49,565 bases of DNA from Bacteroidia bacterium (GTDB lineage: Bacteria; Bacteroidota; Bacteroidia; Bacteroidales; JAPLDU01), in NCBI GenBank assembly GCA_026391255.1, contig JAPLDU010000089.1, positions 1 through 49,565 on the forward strand, in the 5' to 3' direction. The notes under the pieces are model-generated. The model made no database searches, had not been told where the DNA came from, and saw only the letters and a list, made by a program, of their open reading frames with translations. Position 1 is the first letter of the stretch; every line of letters begins with the position of its first letter. The translations under genes and the position numbers were made by a program. Shown one piece after another: positions 8,475 through 43,522 of the stretch.

Positions 8475-9413
8475 ATGGTTCAGCCTGTTTTATTATACAG
8501 GCCAGTCTCCTTCAGAAATAATATTAAAGTGTCCAACATATTTCAAATATTAAAACAATATGCCTCCCCTGTTGATATAGAAGAAGTGACCGGGAAAGTC
8601 GGAGAGATTCTTGCTGTAAGTGCTGATAATTATTCTTATGAGAACCTGAAGCTGATATATAGTGTAATTGATCTGACTTCATTAAATTCCACGGATAACG
8701 AAAGCAAGATAAAGGCTATATGCACTAAGATCAATGAGTTTGCCAATCATTATCCCGATTTACCGAATGTTGCAGGAATATGTGTTTTCCCATCTCTGGC
8801 AGGTTGTGCTAAATATTATCTGAAAGTCCCTTCGGTGAGGGTAGTTTCAGTAGCCGGCGGGTTTCCCTTTTCACAGACATTTTTCGAGATTCGGGAGCAG
8901 GAAGCCCGGTTAGCCGTTAAAGCAGGAGCTTCAGAAATTGATATGTTACTGAATGTGGGTAAATTCCTGGAAGGTAACGCCAATGCGGTTTTTGGTGAGA
9001 TTCAGAAGTTAAAGACCTCTATAGGCAAAATCAGGTTAAAGGTGATACTTGAAACAGGCGCCTTAAAAACATTGGATAATATAAAAGCAGCATCCATTAT
9101 AGCCATGGAGGCAGGAGCTGATTTTATCAAGACTTCAACCGGTAAGCTCGAAACATCGGCAACGCCCGAAGCCGTCTATGTAATTGCCAAAGCCATTAAA
9201 GAGTTTTATCTCAGGACGGGGGTAAAAGTGGGTATTAAACCATCAGGCGGTATATCAACCTGTGAGGATGCCCTGATATATTTTACCATTATAAAAAAAG
9301 TACTTGGAGATAGCTGGCTGAATCCTAAACTCTTCCGTATTGGAGCAAGCAGGCTGACCAACAATGTTCTTCTGGAACTGGAGAAATTGCGACCTGAAAC
9401 TTCGACCATCTGA
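8475..9413 (+). CDS. deoC: deoxyribose-phosphate aldolase
   Basis: Cytoplasmic class I aldolase that cleaves 2-deoxyribose 5-phosphate to glyceraldehyde 3-phosphate and acetaldehyde in deoxynucleoside catabolism. From the ATG at 8475 (a TTG at 8472 is also in frame) the protein has 312 residues. VILETG lies around 190-195. K219 in DFIKTSTGK is the Schiff-base lysine, D156 in SEIDMLLN and K255 in GIKPSGG are the partner residues. It is about 60 residues longer at the N-terminus than the E. coli enzyme, as in other Bacteroidota. The gene probably shares a transcript with tatA. Confidence 0.93.
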   Translation: MVQPVLLYRPVSFRNNIKVSNIFQILKQYASPVDIEEVTGKVGEILAVSADNYSYENLKLIYSVIDLTSLNSTDNESKIKAICTKINEFANHYPDLPNVAGICVFPSLAGCAKYYLKVPSVRVVSVAGGFPFSQTFFEIREQEARLAVKAGASEIDMLLNVGKFLEGNANAVFGEIQKLKTSIGKIRLKVILETGALKTLDNIKAASIIAMEAGADFIKTSTGKLETSATPEAVYVIAKAIKEFYLRTGVKVGIKPSGGISTCEDALIYFTIIKKVLGDSWLNPKLFRIGASRLTNNVLLELEKLRPETSTI

Positions 9414-9417
9414 ACAT

Positions 9418-9795
9418 TTGAAAATAAAATTCCAAAAAACAAATCACAAAAAACAAATAATAAACAATATTAAAATTTCAAATACAAATCAAACTACTTT
9501 GAATTTGTCAATTTGTTGATTGATATTTATTTGTTATTTGTATTTTGAGATTTGTGATTTCTTATTTTGAATTTGTCAATTTGTTGATTGAAATTTATTT
9601 GTTATTTGTATTTTGAGATTTGTGATTTCTTATTTTGAATTTGTCATTTTGTTGATTGAAATTTATTTGTTATTTGTATTTTGAGATTTGTGATTTCTTA
9701 TTTTGAATTTGTCATTTTGTTGATTGAAATTTATTTGTTATTTGTATTTTGAGATTTGTGATTTCTTGTTTGGTACTGGCTCGTATAGATCAGGT
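9418..9795. repeat. dispersed palindromic repeat copy 2 with a 4x68-bp tandem array
   Basis: The left arm (AATTCCAAAAAACAAATCAC onward) is the approximate reverse complement of the right arm. The right arm is expanded into four tandem units of exactly 68 bp starting at 9501, 9569, 9637 and 9705 and ending about 9772. Units begin GAATTTGTCA and end GATTTCTTATTTT; the last turns into the family's usual end TTGTTTGGTACTGGCTCGT. The units differ only at a few bases. It separates the convergent deoC and fabI genes. Confidence 0.9.
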
Positions 9796-22489: not shown

Positions 22490-22757
22490 AACCACATAGT
22501 ATCTTATTTCTGAAATCTTGACGTGTATTGGAAAAAAATTCCAAAAAACAAATCACAAAAAACAAATAATAAACAAAATAAAAATTTCAAATACCAAACA
22601 AACTACTTTGAAATTGTCATTTTGTTGATTGATATTTATTTGTTATTTGTATTTTGAGATTTGTGATTTCTTGTTTGGTTCTGGCTTGTCTAGGTTAGGT
22701 AGATAGGAAACACAGAGAGGAAAAACTATGTGTATCTATGTGACTATTGTGGTAAAT
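22490..22757. repeat. nested repeats: ACCACATAG element interrupted by dispersed palindrome copy 3
   Basis: The outer arms are ACCACATAG at 22491-22499 and, at the right, CTATGTGTATCTATGTGACTA through GTGGTAAA. Between them lies a complete copy of the dispersed palindrome (about 22498-22703), from AGTATCTTATTTCTGAAATC to GTTTGGTTCTGGCTTGTC. The outer element without this insertion is seen at 27337-27455. Confidence 0.75.
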
Positions 22758-24575: not shown

Positions 24576-24665
24576 ACTTCTCCAACTACCTCTAAAACAG
24601 GGGAGGCAAAAACCTGCGACTCACAATGCCCCACTTGTTTTAGGAGGGGTTAAGGGAGGTAAAAT
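24576..24665. repeat. CCTCCCC hairpin repeat, copy downstream of DUF559
   Basis: About 90 bp with two hairpins joined by GCAAAAACCTGCGACTCACA: CCTCTAAAACAGGGGAGG and CCCCACTTGTTTTAGGAGGGG. It is near-identical to 25107-25197 on the other side of the gene, in the same orientation, and ends two bases before the restored DUF559 stop codon. Confidence 0.9.
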
Positions 24666-24666
24666 A

Positions 24667-25028
24667 CTACTTGAAATTGCGTCTTATTTCATTTAAAACC
24701 CAGTCAGTTCTAAACATTACGTCATTATTAATAAAACGGATAATGTTAATGCCAAGATTATTAAGATATTCTGTTCTTTTTTGTCATGTTCTTTCCCTTC
24801 CTCCGTAAAGTGAGGTGAGCCATCAAGTTCAATTGCAAGTTTTTCAGTAGGACAATAAAAATCAAGTACATATTTTCCAACACAGTGCTGTCTTCTAAAC
24901 TTCCGACATTCAAGCTTTTTGTTTTTTAAGTGATTCCATAATAATAATTCAGCAGGAGTAAGTCTTTTCCTTAGCCAGCGCCTCATTTCTTTTAAATCAG
25001 GGAGGTTATGTATTTGATTTTGTTTCAT
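24667..25028 (-). pseudogene. DUF559 nuclease-like protein, -1 frameshift at A6
   Basis: Small protein of the DUF559 family, related to Vsr-type PD-(D/E)XK endonucleases. The uninterrupted frame ends at 24717 after 103 residues, with an unrelated hydrophobic tail after K84. A -1 shift at the AAAAAA run (about 24777-24782) restores the family's C-terminus: RTEYLNNLGINIIRF, then DWVLNEIRRNFK, stopping at 24667-24669, total about 120 residues. Visible features are LTPAE at 23-27, FRRQHCVGKYVLDFYC with D56, and E67-L-D69 in AIELDG. The catalytic half is therefore present in either reading. The gene is enclosed by direct copies of a hairpin repeat. It may be decayed, mis-sequenced, or frameshifted on purpose at the A-run. 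Confidence 0.8.
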
Positions 25029-25106
25029 ATAGTATAATAAACCATCAAATTTTTTAAAATTTTGCCCTACTGTTTCTTATATTGATACAATATGTTCAGG
25101 TCAATT

Positions 25107-25197
25107 TTACCCCACCAACCTCCCCTAAAACAGGGGAGGCAAAAACCTGCGACTCACAATGCCCCTCCTGTTTTAGGAGGGGTCAGGGGAGGTAATT
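25107..25197. repeat. CCTCCCC hairpin repeat, copy upstream of DUF559
   Basis: Two perfect hairpins: CCTCCCCT-AAAAC-AGGGGAGG and CCCCTCCT-GTTTT-AGGAGGGG, linked by GCAAAAACCTGCGACTCACA. The two loop sequences are complementary to each other. Outer TTACCCCACC and GGGGAGGTAA also pair. Related stand-alone copies lie at 28438-28570, 38666-38774 and 42990-43041. Confidence 0.9.
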
Positions 25198-27186: not shown

Positions 27187-27655
27187 AGTATCTTATTTCT
27201 GAAATCCTGACGTGTATTGGCAAAAAATTCCAAAAAACAAATCACAAAAAACAAATAATTAACAATATCAAATTTTCAAATAAGTATATATTATCACTAA
27301 TAAATTTGAGAATTTAAACTCTTACACTCCTAATATTTTACCACATAGTATCATAGAAACATAGGCTTCACATAGACTTGACCATTATTTGCAGTGATAA
27401 TTCGGGATAAAAACTATGTGTCTTACTATGTATCTACTGTGTCTATGTGGTAAAAAAAGATACAAATATTATTAATTTTCATCAACCTTTTTTATGGGGA
27501 TAAGCAGTATAATATTACTCGCTTTGCAAACGAATAAGTCCGTTCTTCCGAATCATTTACAGGTTTTGAATTTGTCATTTTGTCTTTTGAAATTTATTTG
27601 TTATTTGTATTTTGAGATTTGTGATTTCTTGTTTGGTTCCGGCTTGACCAGGCTA
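27187..27655. repeat. dispersed palindrome copy 4, arms separated by an ACCACATAG element
   Basis: The left arm at 27187-27285 (AGTATCTTATTTCTGAAATC, CAAATCACAAAAAACAAATAA) is separated by about 270 bp from the right arm at 27566-27651 (GAATTTGTCATTTTGTC, GTTTGGTTCCGGCTTGACC). Between them lies a 119-bp inverted-repeat element, TTTACCACATAG at 27337 to CTATGTGGTAAAA at 27455. No protein is encoded. Confidence 0.75.
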
Positions 27656-28375: not shown

Positions 28376-28624
28376 TCTTAGAAGCTGTTTTGAATTTTAT
28401 TAAGTGTTTGGTTATTAACGTATAATTTTAATTTATGTACCCTCCCCTTCGTCCCCTCCCTCCGCCGCGGCGGATGGCAGGGAGGGGATTAAACGCTTAT
28501 TTCTATATTATAAATTAGCAGAACTCAGTTCCCCTCCTTGCTGGCAGGGAGGGGTCAGGGGTGGGTAAAAAGTAAAATATGGCAAAATTTTGAGATATTA
28601 ATAAATATAAAACAACCTCTTAGC
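28376..28624. repeat. three-level nested hairpin repeat
   Basis: The outer arms are CTTAGAAGCTGTTTTGAATT (28376) and its approximate reverse complement near 28605-28624 (AAAACAACCTCTTAG). Inside are two CCCTCCC hairpins (28453-28487 and 28531-28554). The first hairpin carries the micropalindrome TCCGCCGCGGCGGA at 28461-28474 in its loop. No gene lies in 28274-28835. Confidence 0.75.
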
Positions 28625-28835: not shown

Positions 28836-28951
28836 TTATATTAAACCGAAATTTATTTATTACATAAATATTGCTTAATTCACTAAATATCATTTGATTA
28901 TATTTGTAAATCGTTCCGCCTCCGGCGGATAGTAATTCTAAAATTAATATT
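28836..28951. repeat. 100-bp direct repeat, copy carrying a micropalindrome
   Basis: Nearly identical to 35262-35364 in the same orientation (starts TTATATTAAACCGAAATTTA, ends TAATTCTAAAATTAATAT). This copy has TCCGCCTCCGGCGGA at 28915-28929 where the other has AATTCG. It contains TATATTTG (28899-28906), which fits the -7 consensus, and lies about 85 nt before the giant secreted-protein gene. Confidence 0.88.
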
Positions 28952-29034
28952 AATCCTGGGTTGTTGAAAATCCAGGTATACTCTGTGTCTGTTGATCAGA
29001 GTATTTTGTAATTTTGAACTTTAAAATATCCGGT

Positions 29035-32000
29035 ATGAAAAAAGTTTATTTGTTCATAACAGCCATGGGTCTGTTTCAATTATTAAATGCCCAGACGGCA
29101 ATACTGACGGAAGATTTCAGCAATACATACAGTAATTATTTCAACCTGACCGGCGATGTAGAGTCACAGGCATATATTGACAATGGATCAGCCATTATGA
29201 CCGGGGGCGCCGATTCCCTCTGGACAGGTAACGGCAATGGAACAACCGCCCAGAATGCCTGGACAAGCGACACTTCACACCATGCATCTCTCACCACTAA
29301 TTTTGACGGGACAGGATATGCCGGTCTCGAACTGAAAGTGAGGATGCGTCAGACAGCCGGTACATCGCTCAAATACTCATGGTTCCGGGTTCTGATAAAC
29401 GGAGTGCAGATCAGCGACCAGTGCGGGACTAGCAATTTCAATCCACAGACATTTACCGGTGATCCGTTCATAACACTCAGTTTCAATCTTTCGGTATATG
29501 CCGGAACACAGTTTTACCTTACTCTGCAGTCGAGTTGCAAAATGCTGAACACCGATGCCGTTTATATTGACAATGTGGTTGTATATGGCAGCGCACTGAA
29601 TGTTGCTGCAACTATTCCTTATACACAAAACTTCGAACTTTACAGTATGCCTCCCGGATGGTCAGTCTGCCAGCAGGCGGGTTCATTCGGGTGGCAGAAC
29701 GGAACAGCTGTCAGTCCCCTCATTCCGGTACATACCGGTTATGCTGCTTCAGTAAACATCCCGTCGGACGGGATAATCTGCAATAATTACCTGATCTCTC
29801 CGGTGTTCAATTTTTCCGGTCAGTCAGCCATTTCCCTCCAGTTCGACCTTTACTCGTCATCTGCAGGAACGGTGGTGGCCAGTACAAATGGGAGCACCAC
29901 ATGGACAGTTACATTATACACCATCAGTGCCACTTCAGGATGGCAAACCATCATTATTCCGCTTACGGCATACAGTAACCTGGCAAACTTCCGTTTTGCA
30001 TTTCATCATTCGGATGCAGGAGACGCCTCAAGCCAGATCGCAGTTGACAATATATCAATAACAGGAACGGCAACAGTTATGCCCGATGCAGGGGTTTCGT
30101 CCCTGGTTTCGCCCGTCAGCGGAAACAACCTGAGCAGTTCGGAAGTGGTGAGCATCCAGATTCATAATTTTGGAACCCAGGCAATCTCCAATTTCCCCGT
30201 ATCTTATCAAATTAATAATAATTCAGTTGTAAACCAGACTGTGACTTCATCTGTCCCGGCCGGACAAAATTTTGCTTTTACTTTCAGTTTAACAGCCGAT
30301 CTATCCGCAATAGGCAGTTACGTGGTAAAAACCTGGACTAACCTTGCATATGATGTGAACCATTCAAACGACACCCTTATAACGACCGTCATCTGCAGCG
30401 AGCCCACAATTTCCACATTCCCTTATTATGAATCCTTTGAAGGGACTACTCTGTGGACCAGCGGCGGCACTAATTCGTCATGGGAAGATGGCATACCTGC
30501 CAAGGCTTTTATCAGCAGCGCATCCAACGGGATGAAAGCCTGGGTCACCAATCTTGACGGGCCTTACAATGCCTATGAGGCATCTTATGTTACCAGCCCG
30601 AATTTCAATTTCTCTTCATTATCCCTTCCGATCATTGAACTGGATGTATTATGCCAGACCGAACCCATTGAAGATGGAGCATGCCTTGAATATTCCACCG
30701 ATCATGGGGTCACATGGAATGCTGTAGGCAGCGATACCGATGGTTCCAACTGGTACAATTCACCCTGGATCACAGGTTTGTATTTTACCGGGAGCACAGC
30801 AGGCTGGAACGGAACGCCATTTCCACATTGGGTAACCTCACAACATGTTCTTACTGCACTCGGAGGACAGCAGAGCGTTAAATTCAGGATGTACTTCGGT
30901 TCAACTGAAAACGCAAACCAGAAAGAAGGATTCGCATTTGATAATATAAAAATATTTGACACACCTCAATATGATGCAGGAGTAACAGCCCTGGTACATC
31001 CAAGCGGTGATTGTTTACAATCTTCCACTACACCTGCAACAGTCACTGTAACCAATTTTGGTTATGCTCCGCTTGTAAACCTCCAGGTAACACTGAATAT
31101 TTCCGGAACCATATCAACGGTAATATATCCGGATACCATCCCGGGAGACAGCTCTGCCAATGTTTCTTTCCCGAACGTATTTAATCTTTCCCTGGCAGGG
31201 ACTTATTATATTACAGCATATACTCATTTACCCGGTGATATTTTGTATTTCAATGACACATTGCATACCCAGTTGGTTCTGACAAATCCCCTAAGTCTGC
31301 CGTTTTCAGAAAATTTTGAATCAGGAGTTTTACCTCCGGGATGGTCGCGTTCACAGGCCGCAGGTTCTAACGGATGGCTCATTGGAAGCGCCCAGTCAAG
31401 CAGTTACTTTAATGTGCCTTCGCATACCATCTATGCTGCTTCCAATGATGATGTCTGCAACTGCGACATGAGCGTTGATTACCTGATCACTCCGCACTTG
31501 AGTTTTGCCGGGTTGAATACGGTAAGTCTGCAATTTGACGCTTACAATCCCGGTAACTACGGATCATCCGGGCATATCCTTGTAAGTACCGACTGCGGTT
31601 ACTCATGGACCAATGTGTACGATGTACCGGCCAACACCACGGCATGGCAGACCCTCACTGTCAATTTAAATACATACGCAGGTTACAACAATGTTAAAAT
31701 TGCATTTCATCACAACGACGGAGGTCAATGGGCTTCAGGGTTTGCTGTTGACAATGTGCATGTGACCGGCACTTCTAATACAGTTACCCAGAACATCAAC
31801 CTGCCTGCCGGATGGTGCTATTTTTCCACCTATATCAATACCGTTCAGACTATTTCAAGCCTTGTATCACCGGTACTCGCAAACGTGATAATAGTTAAAA
31901 GCGAAGCCGGAAACGTTTACTGGCCACAGTATGGGGTTAACAACATCGGAAATGCAGTTGTCGGAAAAGCTTTCCAGGTAAAAATGACATCGCAGTCAGT

Positions 32001-32271
32001 GCTTCCGGTGACAGGAATTCAGGTTATACCCCAGAACACCCCCATTCTTATTCCCAATGGCTGGAGCCTGCTGGGATACCTCAGAAATTCACCCTCACCA
32101 CTGGTCAGCATGTTTGGAGCATGGTCCTCATCCATCGGAATAATAAAAAACAGCATAGGACAGGTATACTGGCCATATTACGGGATAAATTCAATCGGGA
32201 TGATGAATCCTGGGGAAGGATATAATATACGTACCTGGACTAACATTAACTTTACTTACCCGGCGAATTAG
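29035..32271 (+). CDS. large secreted multidomain adhesin-like protein
   Basis: Exported protein of 1078 residues from the ATG at 29035 (a TTG seven codons upstream is also in frame). The signal peptide ends at LLNAQ (20). The body contains an N-terminal beta-sandwich-like region (about 21-185), then three choice-of-anchor J / cleaved-adhesin-like domains (about 190-345, 460-640, 748-908). They begin with patterns such as YTQNFELYSMPPGWS and FSENFESGVLPPGWS and end in AVDNISITG, AFDNIKIFD or AVDNVHVTG. They alternate with CARDB-like domains (about 350-445, 645-745). The last 159 residues are the paired GW/VYWP domain also found in the protein at 3613-5817. No T9SS type A tail follows. Its stop codon overlaps the edge of a dispersed repeat. 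A role in adhesion or carbohydrate binding is inferred from domain type only. Confidence 0.85.
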   Translation: MKKVYLFITAMGLFQLLNAQTAILTEDFSNTYSNYFNLTGDVESQAYIDNGSAIMTGGADSLWTGNGNGTTAQNAWTSDTSHHASLTTNFDGTGYAGLELKVRMRQTAGTSLKYSWFRVLINGVQISDQCGTSNFNPQTFTGDPFITLSFNLSVYAGTQFYLTLQSSCKMLNTDAVYIDNVVVYGSALNVAATIPYTQNFELYSMPPGWSVCQQAGSFGWQNGTAVSPLIPVHTGYAASVNIPSDGIICNNYLISPVFNFSGQSAISLQFDLYSSSAGTVVASTNGSTTWTVTLYTISATSGWQTIIIPLTAYSNLANFRFAFHHSDAGDASSQIAVDNISITGTATVMPDAGVSSLVSPVSGNNLSSSEVVSIQIHNFGTQAISNFPVSYQINNNSVVNQTVTSSVPAGQNFAFTFSLTADLSAIGSYVVKTWTNLAYDVNHSNDTLITTVICSEPTISTFPYYESFEGTTLWTSGGTNSSWEDGIPAKAFISSASNGMKAWVTNLDGPYNAYEASYVTSPNFNFSSLSLPIIELDVLCQTEPIEDGACLEYSTDHGVTWNAVGSDTDGSNWYNSPWITGLYFTGSTAGWNGTPFPHWVTSQHVLTALGGQQSVKFRMYFGSTENANQKEGFAFDNIKIFDTPQYDAGVTALVHPSGDCLQSSTTPATVTVTNFGYAPLVNLQVTLNISGTISTVIYPDTIPGDSSANVSFPNVFNLSLAGTYYITAYTHLPGDILYFNDTLHTQLVLTNPLSLPFSENFESGVLPPGWSRSQAAGSNGWLIGSAQSSSYFNVPSHTIYAASNDDVCNCDMSVDYLITPHLSFAGLNTVSLQFDAYNPGNYGSSGHILVSTDCGYSWTNVYDVPANTTAWQTLTVNLNTYAGYNNVKIAFHHNDGGQWASGFAVDNVHVTGTSNTVTQNINLPAGWCYFSTYINTVQTISSLVSPVLANVIIVKSEAGNVYWPQYGVNNIGNAVVGKAFQVKMTSQSVLPVTGIQVIPQNTPILIPNGWSLLGYLRNSPSPLVSMFGAWSSSIGIIKNSIGQVYWPYYGINSIGMMNPGEGYNIRTWTNINFTYPAN

Positions 32272-32480
32272 TATCTTATTTCTGAAATCTTGGTGCGTTT
32301 TGGCAAAAAATTCCAATAATCAAATCACAAAAAACAAATAATATCAAATTTTCAAAAATGAAACAAACTACTTTGAATTTGTCATTTTGTTGATTGATAT
32401 TTGTTTGTTATTTGTTCCGCCACGGCGGATTGAGATTTGTGATTTCTTTTTTGGTTCCGGCTCATCCAGGTTGGGGTAAT
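32269..32480. repeat. dispersed palindrome copy 5, with micropalindrome
   Basis: Begins TAGTATCTTATTTCTGAAAT over the stop codon of the preceding gene and ends GGTTCCGGCTCATCCAGGTT. TCCGCCACGGCGGA lies at 32416-32429, where other copies have ATT. Confidence 0.85.
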
Positions 32481-35261: not shown

Positions 35262-35364
35262 TTATATTAAACCGAAATTTATTTATTACATAAATATTGT
35301 TTAATCCACTAAATATCATTTGATTATATTCGTAAATCGTAATTCGTAATTCTAAAATTAATAT
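35262..35364. repeat. 100-bp direct repeat, copy without micropalindrome
   Basis: Same sequence as 28836-28951 but with AATTCG at 35341-35346 in place of the TCCGCC micropalindrome. With that copy it brackets a 6.3-kb segment holding the giant secreted protein and the lipoprotein operon. Confidence 0.88.
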
Positions 35365-38633: not shown

Positions 38634-38665
38634 TATTTATCTATTGCTTATCCACTTTAGTCAAT

Positions 38666-38774
38666 TATTTAACCCCTCCAACCTCCCCTAAAACAGGGGA
38701 GGCTAAATTTGCGGTTCCTTAAACCCTCCTGATCCCTGAGCTTGTCGAAGGGTAGGAGGGTTTGGGAGGTAAAT
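38666..38774. repeat. CCTCCCC hairpin repeat, stand-alone copy with nested micropalindrome
   Basis: The first hairpin, CCTCCCCTAAAACAGGGGAGG, is the same as beside DUF559. The second has the 19-bp micropalindrome CCCTGAGCTTGTCGAAGGG (38734-38752) in its loop, between CCCTCCTGAT and TAGGAGGG. No gene is attached. Confidence 0.85.
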
Positions 38775-40326: not shown

Positions 40327-40395
40327 TTAAACCGGGCAAAAATAATTTATTTTACTATAATTGCCAAAGTCAGTTCAGGGAATATTAAAAAGATC

Positions 40396-40560
40396 GTAAC
40401 TTTTCAGGTTGTTTAGACTATAGACTGTCAGGCTTTTAGGGTAATTGAATTCAATTAATATTCCTAATTTTCCCGTTACCTGATCCGCTGCGGCGGATTG
40501 ATACCGGATATGTATTCTTACAGCTTACAGTCTAAAAGCCTACAGCCTAAAGGCCTGAGT
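40396..40560. repeat. 165-bp inverted repeat, left copy flanking glnN
   Basis: Matches the reverse complement of 43201-43358 over its whole length. Shared words are TCAGGTTGTTTAG, ACTGTCAGGCTTTTAGG, TTGAATTCAATT, TATTCTTA and CAGTCTAAAAGCCTACAGCC. This copy carries TCCGCTGCGGCGGA at 40484-40497, where the other reads TGCC. Confidence 0.85.
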
Positions 40561-40596
40561 AGTAAAAAACATAGTAATTATTCCCAAACACCACTA

Positions 40597-42876: not shown

Positions 42877-43077
42877 AGGTTCTGTTCAAAATTAAAGGAT
42901 CACTAAATTCTCAGGTATTCTATGATTATTATTGCAATTAAATTGAATAAAAAAAATCGACGATTTATAGCATTTATTTTACAAACTTTTTACCCACCCC
43001 TTCCCCTCCCTGCTGGCAGGGAGGGGATTGAGGGAAGGGTAAAAAAACAGATTTCCCGTATTTCTGGAACAGAACCT
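42877..43077. repeat. 201-bp element with 11-bp terminal inverted repeats
   Basis: AGGTTCTGTTC at 42877-42887 and GAACAGAACCT at 43067-43077 are perfect inverted repeats. Inside is a stand-alone CCTCCCC-family hairpin, CCCCTCCC-TGCTGGCA-GGGAGGGG (43003-43026), the empty-site equivalent of 28453-28487. No gene is present in 42781-43522. Confidence 0.75.
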
Positions 43078-43200
43078 TTTTTCACTATTTTATGACCTGA
43101 TGTGGATAATATTATTTAGCTTCCGACTACATAAAGTCCAAATGAAAAACCGGCCGTAAATTATTGTTGTGCTTATGAGTTTTAACTTTTAATTATTGTA

Positions 43201-43358
43201 ACTCCTCATACCTAAAGGCTGTAGGCTTTTAGACTGTATGCTATAAGAATATATATACGGTATCAGGCATCAGGAAAAATTGTAAAAACAGGAATATGAA
43301 TTGAATTCAATTTCCTAAAAGCCTGACAGTATATAGCCTAAACAACCTGAATAGTTAC
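43201..43358. repeat. 158-bp inverted repeat, right copy flanking glnN
   Basis: Reverse complement of 40396-40560 with scattered substitutions and without the TCCGCT micropalindrome (here TATCAGGCATCAGG). Confidence 0.85.
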
Positions 43359-43522
43359 AACAGTTTTAATAAATGCAAACCAATCATTAAATTAATTAAC
43401 AATGAAATGTTATAGAAAGTTTATTTTCGAATATGTAAATTGAAGAATTAAAATTTCCGGTCCGGTTAAAATATAACAATTAAAAGAATGTTATTAATTT
43501 AGCGCCCCCTTTTTAGTAATAT

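Follow-up and report, generated by a model that had tools for sequence, protein, structure and literature searches.

A REPIN-like family of double-hairpin elements in Bacteroidota, probably moved by a DUF559 nuclease

Introduction

In REPIN/RAYT systems, the repeated unit consists of two inverse palindromes and a linker, gene-less copies are numerous, and the few gene copies are flanked by repeats (PMC3116915). Moreover, the repeat family tracks the protein lineage, and the repeats have hairpin and clover forms as alternative folds (PMC3116915). All of these features are shared by the elements described here. The Rickettsia palindromic elements (RPEs) resemble them in another respect, as palindromic repeats located in frame within protein-coding genes; the likeness is one of description, and RPEs are described as short (~150 bp) elements with no mention of a nuclease gene (PMC10969869).

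In this study, we analyzed a stretch of 49,565 nucleotides, hereafter called the window, in which a DUF559 gene lies between two hairpin repeats. DUF559 proteins are annotated as having an unknown function. In Caulobacter, a DUF559 protein was linked to DNA damage and shown to cause the SOS response of methylase-deficient cells (PMC12907096). The explanation that we favor, with a probability of roughly 0.6, is that the repeats constitute a REPIN-like mobile family with gene-bearing and gene-less members, probably moved by the nuclease rather than by a RAYT transposase.

Results

A frameshifted DUF559 gene between two direct repeats

The gene in the window belongs to DUF559 (PF04480, a Vsr-like PD-(D/E)XK nuclease family; Pfam E-value 1e-20) and occupies positions 24667–25028 of the reverse strand, with its open part at 24717–25028. 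The reading frame is lost at an A6 run (24777–24782), and the domain resumes in the −1 frame (second piece, 24676–24798). The restored frame ends at a TAG codon at 24667–24669, two bases from the left repeat, which ends at 24664, exactly as the sequence-only reading had placed it. We rejected programmed −1 frameshifting as an explanation for the break in frame, because the A6 run starts at a codon boundary, out of register for a classical slippery heptamer, and also because the stand-alone DUF559 relatives are nearly all intact.

The repeats at 24576–24664 and 25108–25197, both read on the forward strand, belong to a family that we refer to as family A. The same reading had described near-identical ~90-bp repeats in one orientation around the gene, and they are indeed direct copies, with 89% identity across 92 nt and a spacing of 533 bp. 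It had also assigned to each repeat two hairpins with complementary AAAAC and GTTTT loops. This holds for the right repeat, which as single-stranded DNA folds into CCTCCCCT-AAAAC-AGGGGAGG and CCCCTCCT-GTTTT-AGGAGGGG (z −3.6; 0 of 200 shuffles fold equally well), but not for the left one, which is more degenerate (z −2.0) and for which the best single-stranded DNA fold is one long hairpin. With RNA folding parameters, one long hairpin was obtained for each repeat. The complementarity of the two loops follows from the 90-mer being, as a whole, an imperfect inverted repeat, and the two-hairpin and long-hairpin forms are therefore alternative folds. A search of Rfam returned a single chance match, far under its gathering score. 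The locus is best read as belonging to a REPIN-like mobile family, as one of its gene-bearing members, now damaged.

Two repeat families in the window genome

Related gene-less hairpins had been reported at 28438–28570, 38666–38774 and 42990–43041. All three exist, but they represent two families. The element at 38666–38774 (forward strand) is a family A double hairpin, the second hairpin of which contains a further small palindrome. The other two are assigned to family B: that at 28438–28570 is a gene-less double-hairpin element of the uniform ~130 bp size, while that at 42990–43041 is a single hairpin with outer arms resembling those of family B. The genome-wide search that the sequence-only reading had proposed was performed for both families. 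A family A 20-mer was found at 14 places, allowing up to three mismatches, and at none in the reversed control; the family B arm, TTTACCCACCCCTGACCCCTCCCTGC, was found at 71 places and at none in the control, mostly in uniform gene-less units of ~130 bp.

The only other DUF559 locus of this genome (C32:22901–23292) contains a 57-N gap within the gene and is bracketed by two family B arms (C32:22823, forward; 23369, reverse). Families A and B therefore have one gene-bearing copy each, and the two DUF559 proteins are visibly different. Given the frameshift in the window and the gap in C32, both loci are damaged or incompletely assembled, and their present activity is doubtful. Family B repeats also lie within about 100 bp of the ends of contigs C7, C10, C61, C93, C134 and C143, suggesting that the element breaks the assembly and is under-counted.

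Other repeats accompany these families. Small unrelated palindromes (CCCTGAGCTTGTCGAAGGG, CCGCCGCGGCGG and TCCGCCACTGGCGGA), which are repeats inserted into repeats, are nested in the loops or arms of hairpin elements (window positions 38734 and 28462; L006, L007 and L016–L019). A conserved tag of ~35 nt, CTGCTTATCCACTTTAATCAAGTAAGAC, is located just outside one arm in most gene-less family A copies (window 38645–38665; L001, L004–L008, L016 and L017); both copies flanking the window gene lack it, and at L008 it is present as an inverted pair. AT-rich intergenic repeats of ~90–145 bp (CAAAAAACAAATCACAAAAAACAAATAAT... and TTTGAATTTGTCATTTTGTTGATTG..., up to 94% identity) occupy 9389–9792, 22498–22697, 27187–27655 and 32270–32473 of the window. 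A 79-nt intergenic repeat occurs at 28836–28914 and 35262–35340, 6.4 kb apart and with 96% identity, its first copy being ~100 bp upstream of a large predicted secreted-type ORF (29014–32271). Long inverted repeats at 40383–40568 and 43196–43371, 84–88% complementary and ~2.7 kb apart, enclose the single hairpin at 42990–43041.

Hairpins flank DUF559 genes across Bacteroidota

DUF559 is present in 222 of the 392 sampled Bacteroidota genomes. The left and right flanks match each other at 58 of 79 stand-alone loci (73%), as compared with 4 of 86 control ORFs (5%; Fisher p 9e-22). The control ORFs were drawn from the same loci, and the flanks were measured from the DUF559 domain, so that ORFs running into the repeat were kept. 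GC-rich hairpins are found on both sides at 43 of the 79 loci (54%), as compared with 0 of 84 controls (p 8e-18), and about a quarter of the stand-alone loci have no matching flanks.

Such an association would also be expected if GC-rich palindromes, such as bidirectional terminators, were common beside small intergenic genes. The mostly intergenic location of the elements and the one-sided hairpins at 15 of 84 control ORFs fit this explanation. However, provided that the controls are representative, their values for two-sided hairpins and matching flanks refute it. A search of the window region gave no terminator-like site, and the occurrence of elements within coding genes and their absence from orthologous sites (see below) also argue against it; we regard it as very improbable.

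Under the preferred reading, in which the repeats belong to the DUF559 element, the repeats at other DUF559 genes should be related to those of the window. They are, in architecture, which is enriched far above the controls: double-hairpin inverted repeats surround stand-alone DUF559 genes in many families, with a common architecture and a genome-specific sequence, and in Hymenobacter the hairpin family tracks the nuclease lineage. The gene lies either within one inverted repeat (L022, L084, L115, L146 and the C32 locus) or, like the window gene, between two complete direct copies (L048, L074, L098, L110 and L117). Gene-less copies outnumber gene-bearing ones. Relatives beyond the phylum, several of them with matching flanks, were found in metagenome-assembled genomes (MAGs) assigned to Acidobacteria (Pyrinomonadaceae), Chloroflexi, Desulfosarcina and others. 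In a Pyrinomonadaceae MAG (L238), the 3' end of the neighboring gene (~60 bp) appears on either side of the DUF559 element, a duplication not seen at the other loci.

Lineage coupling in Hymenobacter

Of 61 Hymenobacter genomes, 57 contain the arm pattern CCTCACCCCCCGGCCCCCTCTCC, with as many as 107 occurrences in one genome and few or no control matches. Opposed forward and reverse arms are ~100–160 bp apart in gene-less elements and ~500 bp apart in gene-bearing ones. In a tree of 27 Hymenobacter DUF559 proteins, all eight with CAACCACCCC-type hairpins (F2) form one clade (support 100/100; one change, 0 of 500 shuffles). Hairpin labels are mixed at 8 of the 27 loci, none of them in the F2 clade, and the F1 and mixed-label loci do not separate cleanly from each other; this coupling test was confined to Hymenobacter. 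The window protein joins the F2 clade, and most of its closest relatives have CCACCCC-type hairpins (L043 being an exception).

These results bear on the main rival explanation, in which a Y1 (RAYT/IS200-type) transposase encoded elsewhere in the genome moves the hairpins as REP-like elements, with DUF559 as a passenger or cargo. Y1_Tnp (PF01797) was detected in 11 of 13 genomes tested, with four matches in the window genome, and REPINs display the same inverted-pair layout (PMC3116915). Nevertheless, two Hymenobacter genomes with DUF559-hairpin elements (G499 and G472) have no PF01797 match, which weakens this explanation, and a passenger role agrees poorly with a hairpin family that follows the DUF559 lineage and with a gene that is enclosed by the inverted repeats and groups according to its insertion site. 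We thus consider the Y1 transposase an unlikely driver, and favor the nuclease.

Insertion polymorphism among congeners

In G225, a UvrD-like gene and the next conserved gene are separated by the gene-bearing element L084, which is absent from 20 of 20 congeners examined; ~110 bp of intergenic sequence has been lost or exchanged there. For four further elements, joined-flank queries matched across the junction in 1–3 close congeners and thus revealed empty sites: those for the gene-less L316 and the DUF559-bearing L322 in G492, G499 and G450, and those for L318 and L310 in G499. Thus, gene-less and gene-bearing copies alike are missing at orthologous sites of congeneric species, the polymorphism that the sequence-only reading called for, and the hairpin elements are mobile, with recent insertions.

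L310 is a clean insertion without evident duplication, and the empty sites of L322 already hold CCTC, resembling the element end; no fixed-length target-site duplication is evident in the alignments of these two. Across the insertions compared, among them the clean L310 and L084 with its loss of ~110 bp, we could establish neither a consistent target-site duplication nor a target motif. The CG...CG ends seen in several Hymenobacter elements can be taken to belong to the inverted repeat. The L315 site is gene-less in G225 and gene-bearing in G499, G472 and G458, with genes from two nuclease lineages, and the locus upstream of metF holds different elements in different species; these differences indicate fast turnover. 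For the window locus itself, whose nearest genomes share only the order, the other species suggest that the element was mobile.

In-frame insertions into proteins

The elements also enter coding sequences. Only the in-frame insertions confirmed by relatives or by solved structures are claimed here, as some long frames in GC-rich genomes may represent chance read-through of an upstream gene. In G225, the gene-less L316 adds a 41-residue in-frame insert without a stop codon (ASPPGPLSENGEGVR...SPSPLSERGPGGEA) to methylmalonyl-CoA mutase (named from its sequence); G492 and G499 do not have this insert. In L322, a UvrD-type helicase that is uninterrupted in relatives contains an entire DUF559 element in frame. 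In leucyl-tRNA synthetase (LeuRS), DUF559 is inserted just before the editing domain (185 residues in L078, as compared with ~6 in T. thermophilus LeuRS), and six further genomes have this insertion, as judged by shared sequence. The linker of methionine synthase (MetH) carries DUF559 in L068 and four more cases, and further inserts reside in HsdR, in Eco57I-type methylases (L229 and L243) and in other proteins. The hairpin arms are translated into Pro/Gly linkers, such as PSPxxGEG and SPRERGLGGEA.

Hairpins are present on both sides at 16 of 26 DUF559 loci in long frames, as compared with 2 of 203 shifted controls. Fused DUF559 genes had been considered as a negative control and were dropped, since many are themselves element insertions. 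The MetH-linker nucleases form one group (support 84), while those of LeuRS need two changes on the tree (0 of 500 shuffles). This clustering is as expected for site-specific lineages, although a single insertion passed on vertically would produce it too.

The DUF559 enzyme

A profile of 35 DUF559 sequences matches PDB 3hrl, a DUF559 endonuclease-like protein (5.8e-35), and 3r3p, the homing endonuclease I-Bth0305I (1e-5). An AlphaFold2 model (pLDDT 86.5) retrieved 3hrl, 3r3p and, weakly, Vsr (1vsr) in Foldseek, with a TM-score of 0.73–0.74 against 3r3p, normalised to the latter. The invariant residues include E27, D56, E67-x-D69 and H73. The DUF559 nuclease has the Vsr fold of I-Bth0305I.

A fold of this kind would also suit a host-serving or addictive nuclease, engaged in Vsr-type repair, hairpin or cruciform processing, or defence, for which the hairpin is a substrate and the repeats spread otherwise. 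Caulobacter VsrA has been proposed to act in mismatch repair (PMC12907096), which would fit such a role. On the other hand, the patchy distribution of DUF559 among the sampled genomes, the recent insertions of whole gene-bearing elements and the damaged copies in the window genome suggest a selfish element, and PADLOC gave only partial matches, with no defence family convincingly covering DUF559. A host-serving role therefore appears rather improbable, as compared with a nuclease that moves its own hairpins.

Discussion

Alongside the observed nuclease–hairpin association, the lineage coupling in one genus, the insertion polymorphism, the in-frame insertions and the homology to a homing endonuclease, we infer that the nuclease drives the mobility, and propose the following mode. 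The basic unit is an inverted repeat of ~90–190 bp, composed of an outer arm, a hairpin, a short linker, a second hairpin and the complementary outer arm. The gene-bearing form harbors a Vsr-fold PD-(D/E)XK DUF559 nuclease of 100–160 amino acids, either in the inter-hairpin linker or between two whole units. DUF559 may recognize the arms or hairpins of its own family, together with short target sequences resembling the arm ends, and cut there, and the break would be repaired by copying the element in, in the manner of homing endonucleases. The gene-less copies would be spread in trans, as REPINs are by a RAYT. An arm often has an open frame that codes for a Pro/Gly-rich linker, so that an insertion within a gene can stay in frame and be tolerated.

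A broader possibility, which we put forward tentatively and at somewhat less than even odds, is that these are widespread mobile elements of Bacteroidota and beyond, with a Vsr-fold nuclease acting on its own double-hairpin ends as their sole mobility protein. Such a nuclease would move both gene-bearing and gene-less copies and invade essential genes in frame without splicing, and would have created the DUF559-containing LeuRS, MetH, helicase and restriction enzymes. The findings point to a widespread class, apparently undescribed so far, as we found no prior description of a hairpin-DUF559 element in a literature search of incomplete coverage, with subscription papers mostly outside it. If DUF559 moves these hairpins, a large nuclease family would gain a function and unannotated GC-rich repeats an origin. 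The elements would also show mobile DNA at work in giving nuclease domains to essential proteins, leucyl-tRNA synthetase among them.

Among the known systems, the RPEs differ in that some inserts here carry DUF559 and most copies here are intergenic. Miniature inverted-repeat transposable elements (MITEs) are likewise short, non-autonomous, multi-copy and ended by inverted repeats; however, no consistent target-site duplication was seen here, and the candidate mobility gene does not encode a DDE transposase. Vsr and Caulobacter VsrA share the superfamily fold and the DUF559 domain, but VsrA is described as the product of a chromosomal gene that stands alone and is linked to a cytosine methylase, with no repeats reported for it in the accessible part of the source (PMC12907096).

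The EDxHD/Vsr-fold homing endonucleases, represented by I-Bth0305I, possess a homologous catalytic domain with conserved acidic and His residues and insert recurrently at one site of a conserved gene, as do the site-specific MetH and LeuRS lineages. Empty and occupied orthologous sites exist for the DUF559 elements. The elements here differ in being flanked by hairpin inverted repeats and in having many non-allelic copies, and an unsystematic look noticed no intron, intein or splicing element.

With REPINs, the hairpin elements have in common the paired, inverse, multi-copy palindromes and, in the Hymenobacter F2 clade, a repeat class that follows the protein phylogeny. Their arms are much longer, and they also insert in frame within genes. 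The comparison with REP/RAYT pairs, made from the window alone, is supported by the phylum-wide architecture and the insertion polymorphism, as a repeat family with an occasional gene-bearing member. It extends to how the family works and not to membership, because the gene encodes no Y1 HUH transposase, as a RAYT gene does, but a protein of DUF559 (PF04480), with a Vsr-fold PD-(D/E)XK domain. If our reading is true, the REPIN lifestyle would be sustained by two non-homologous enzymes, a RAYT in the known systems and a DUF559 nuclease here.
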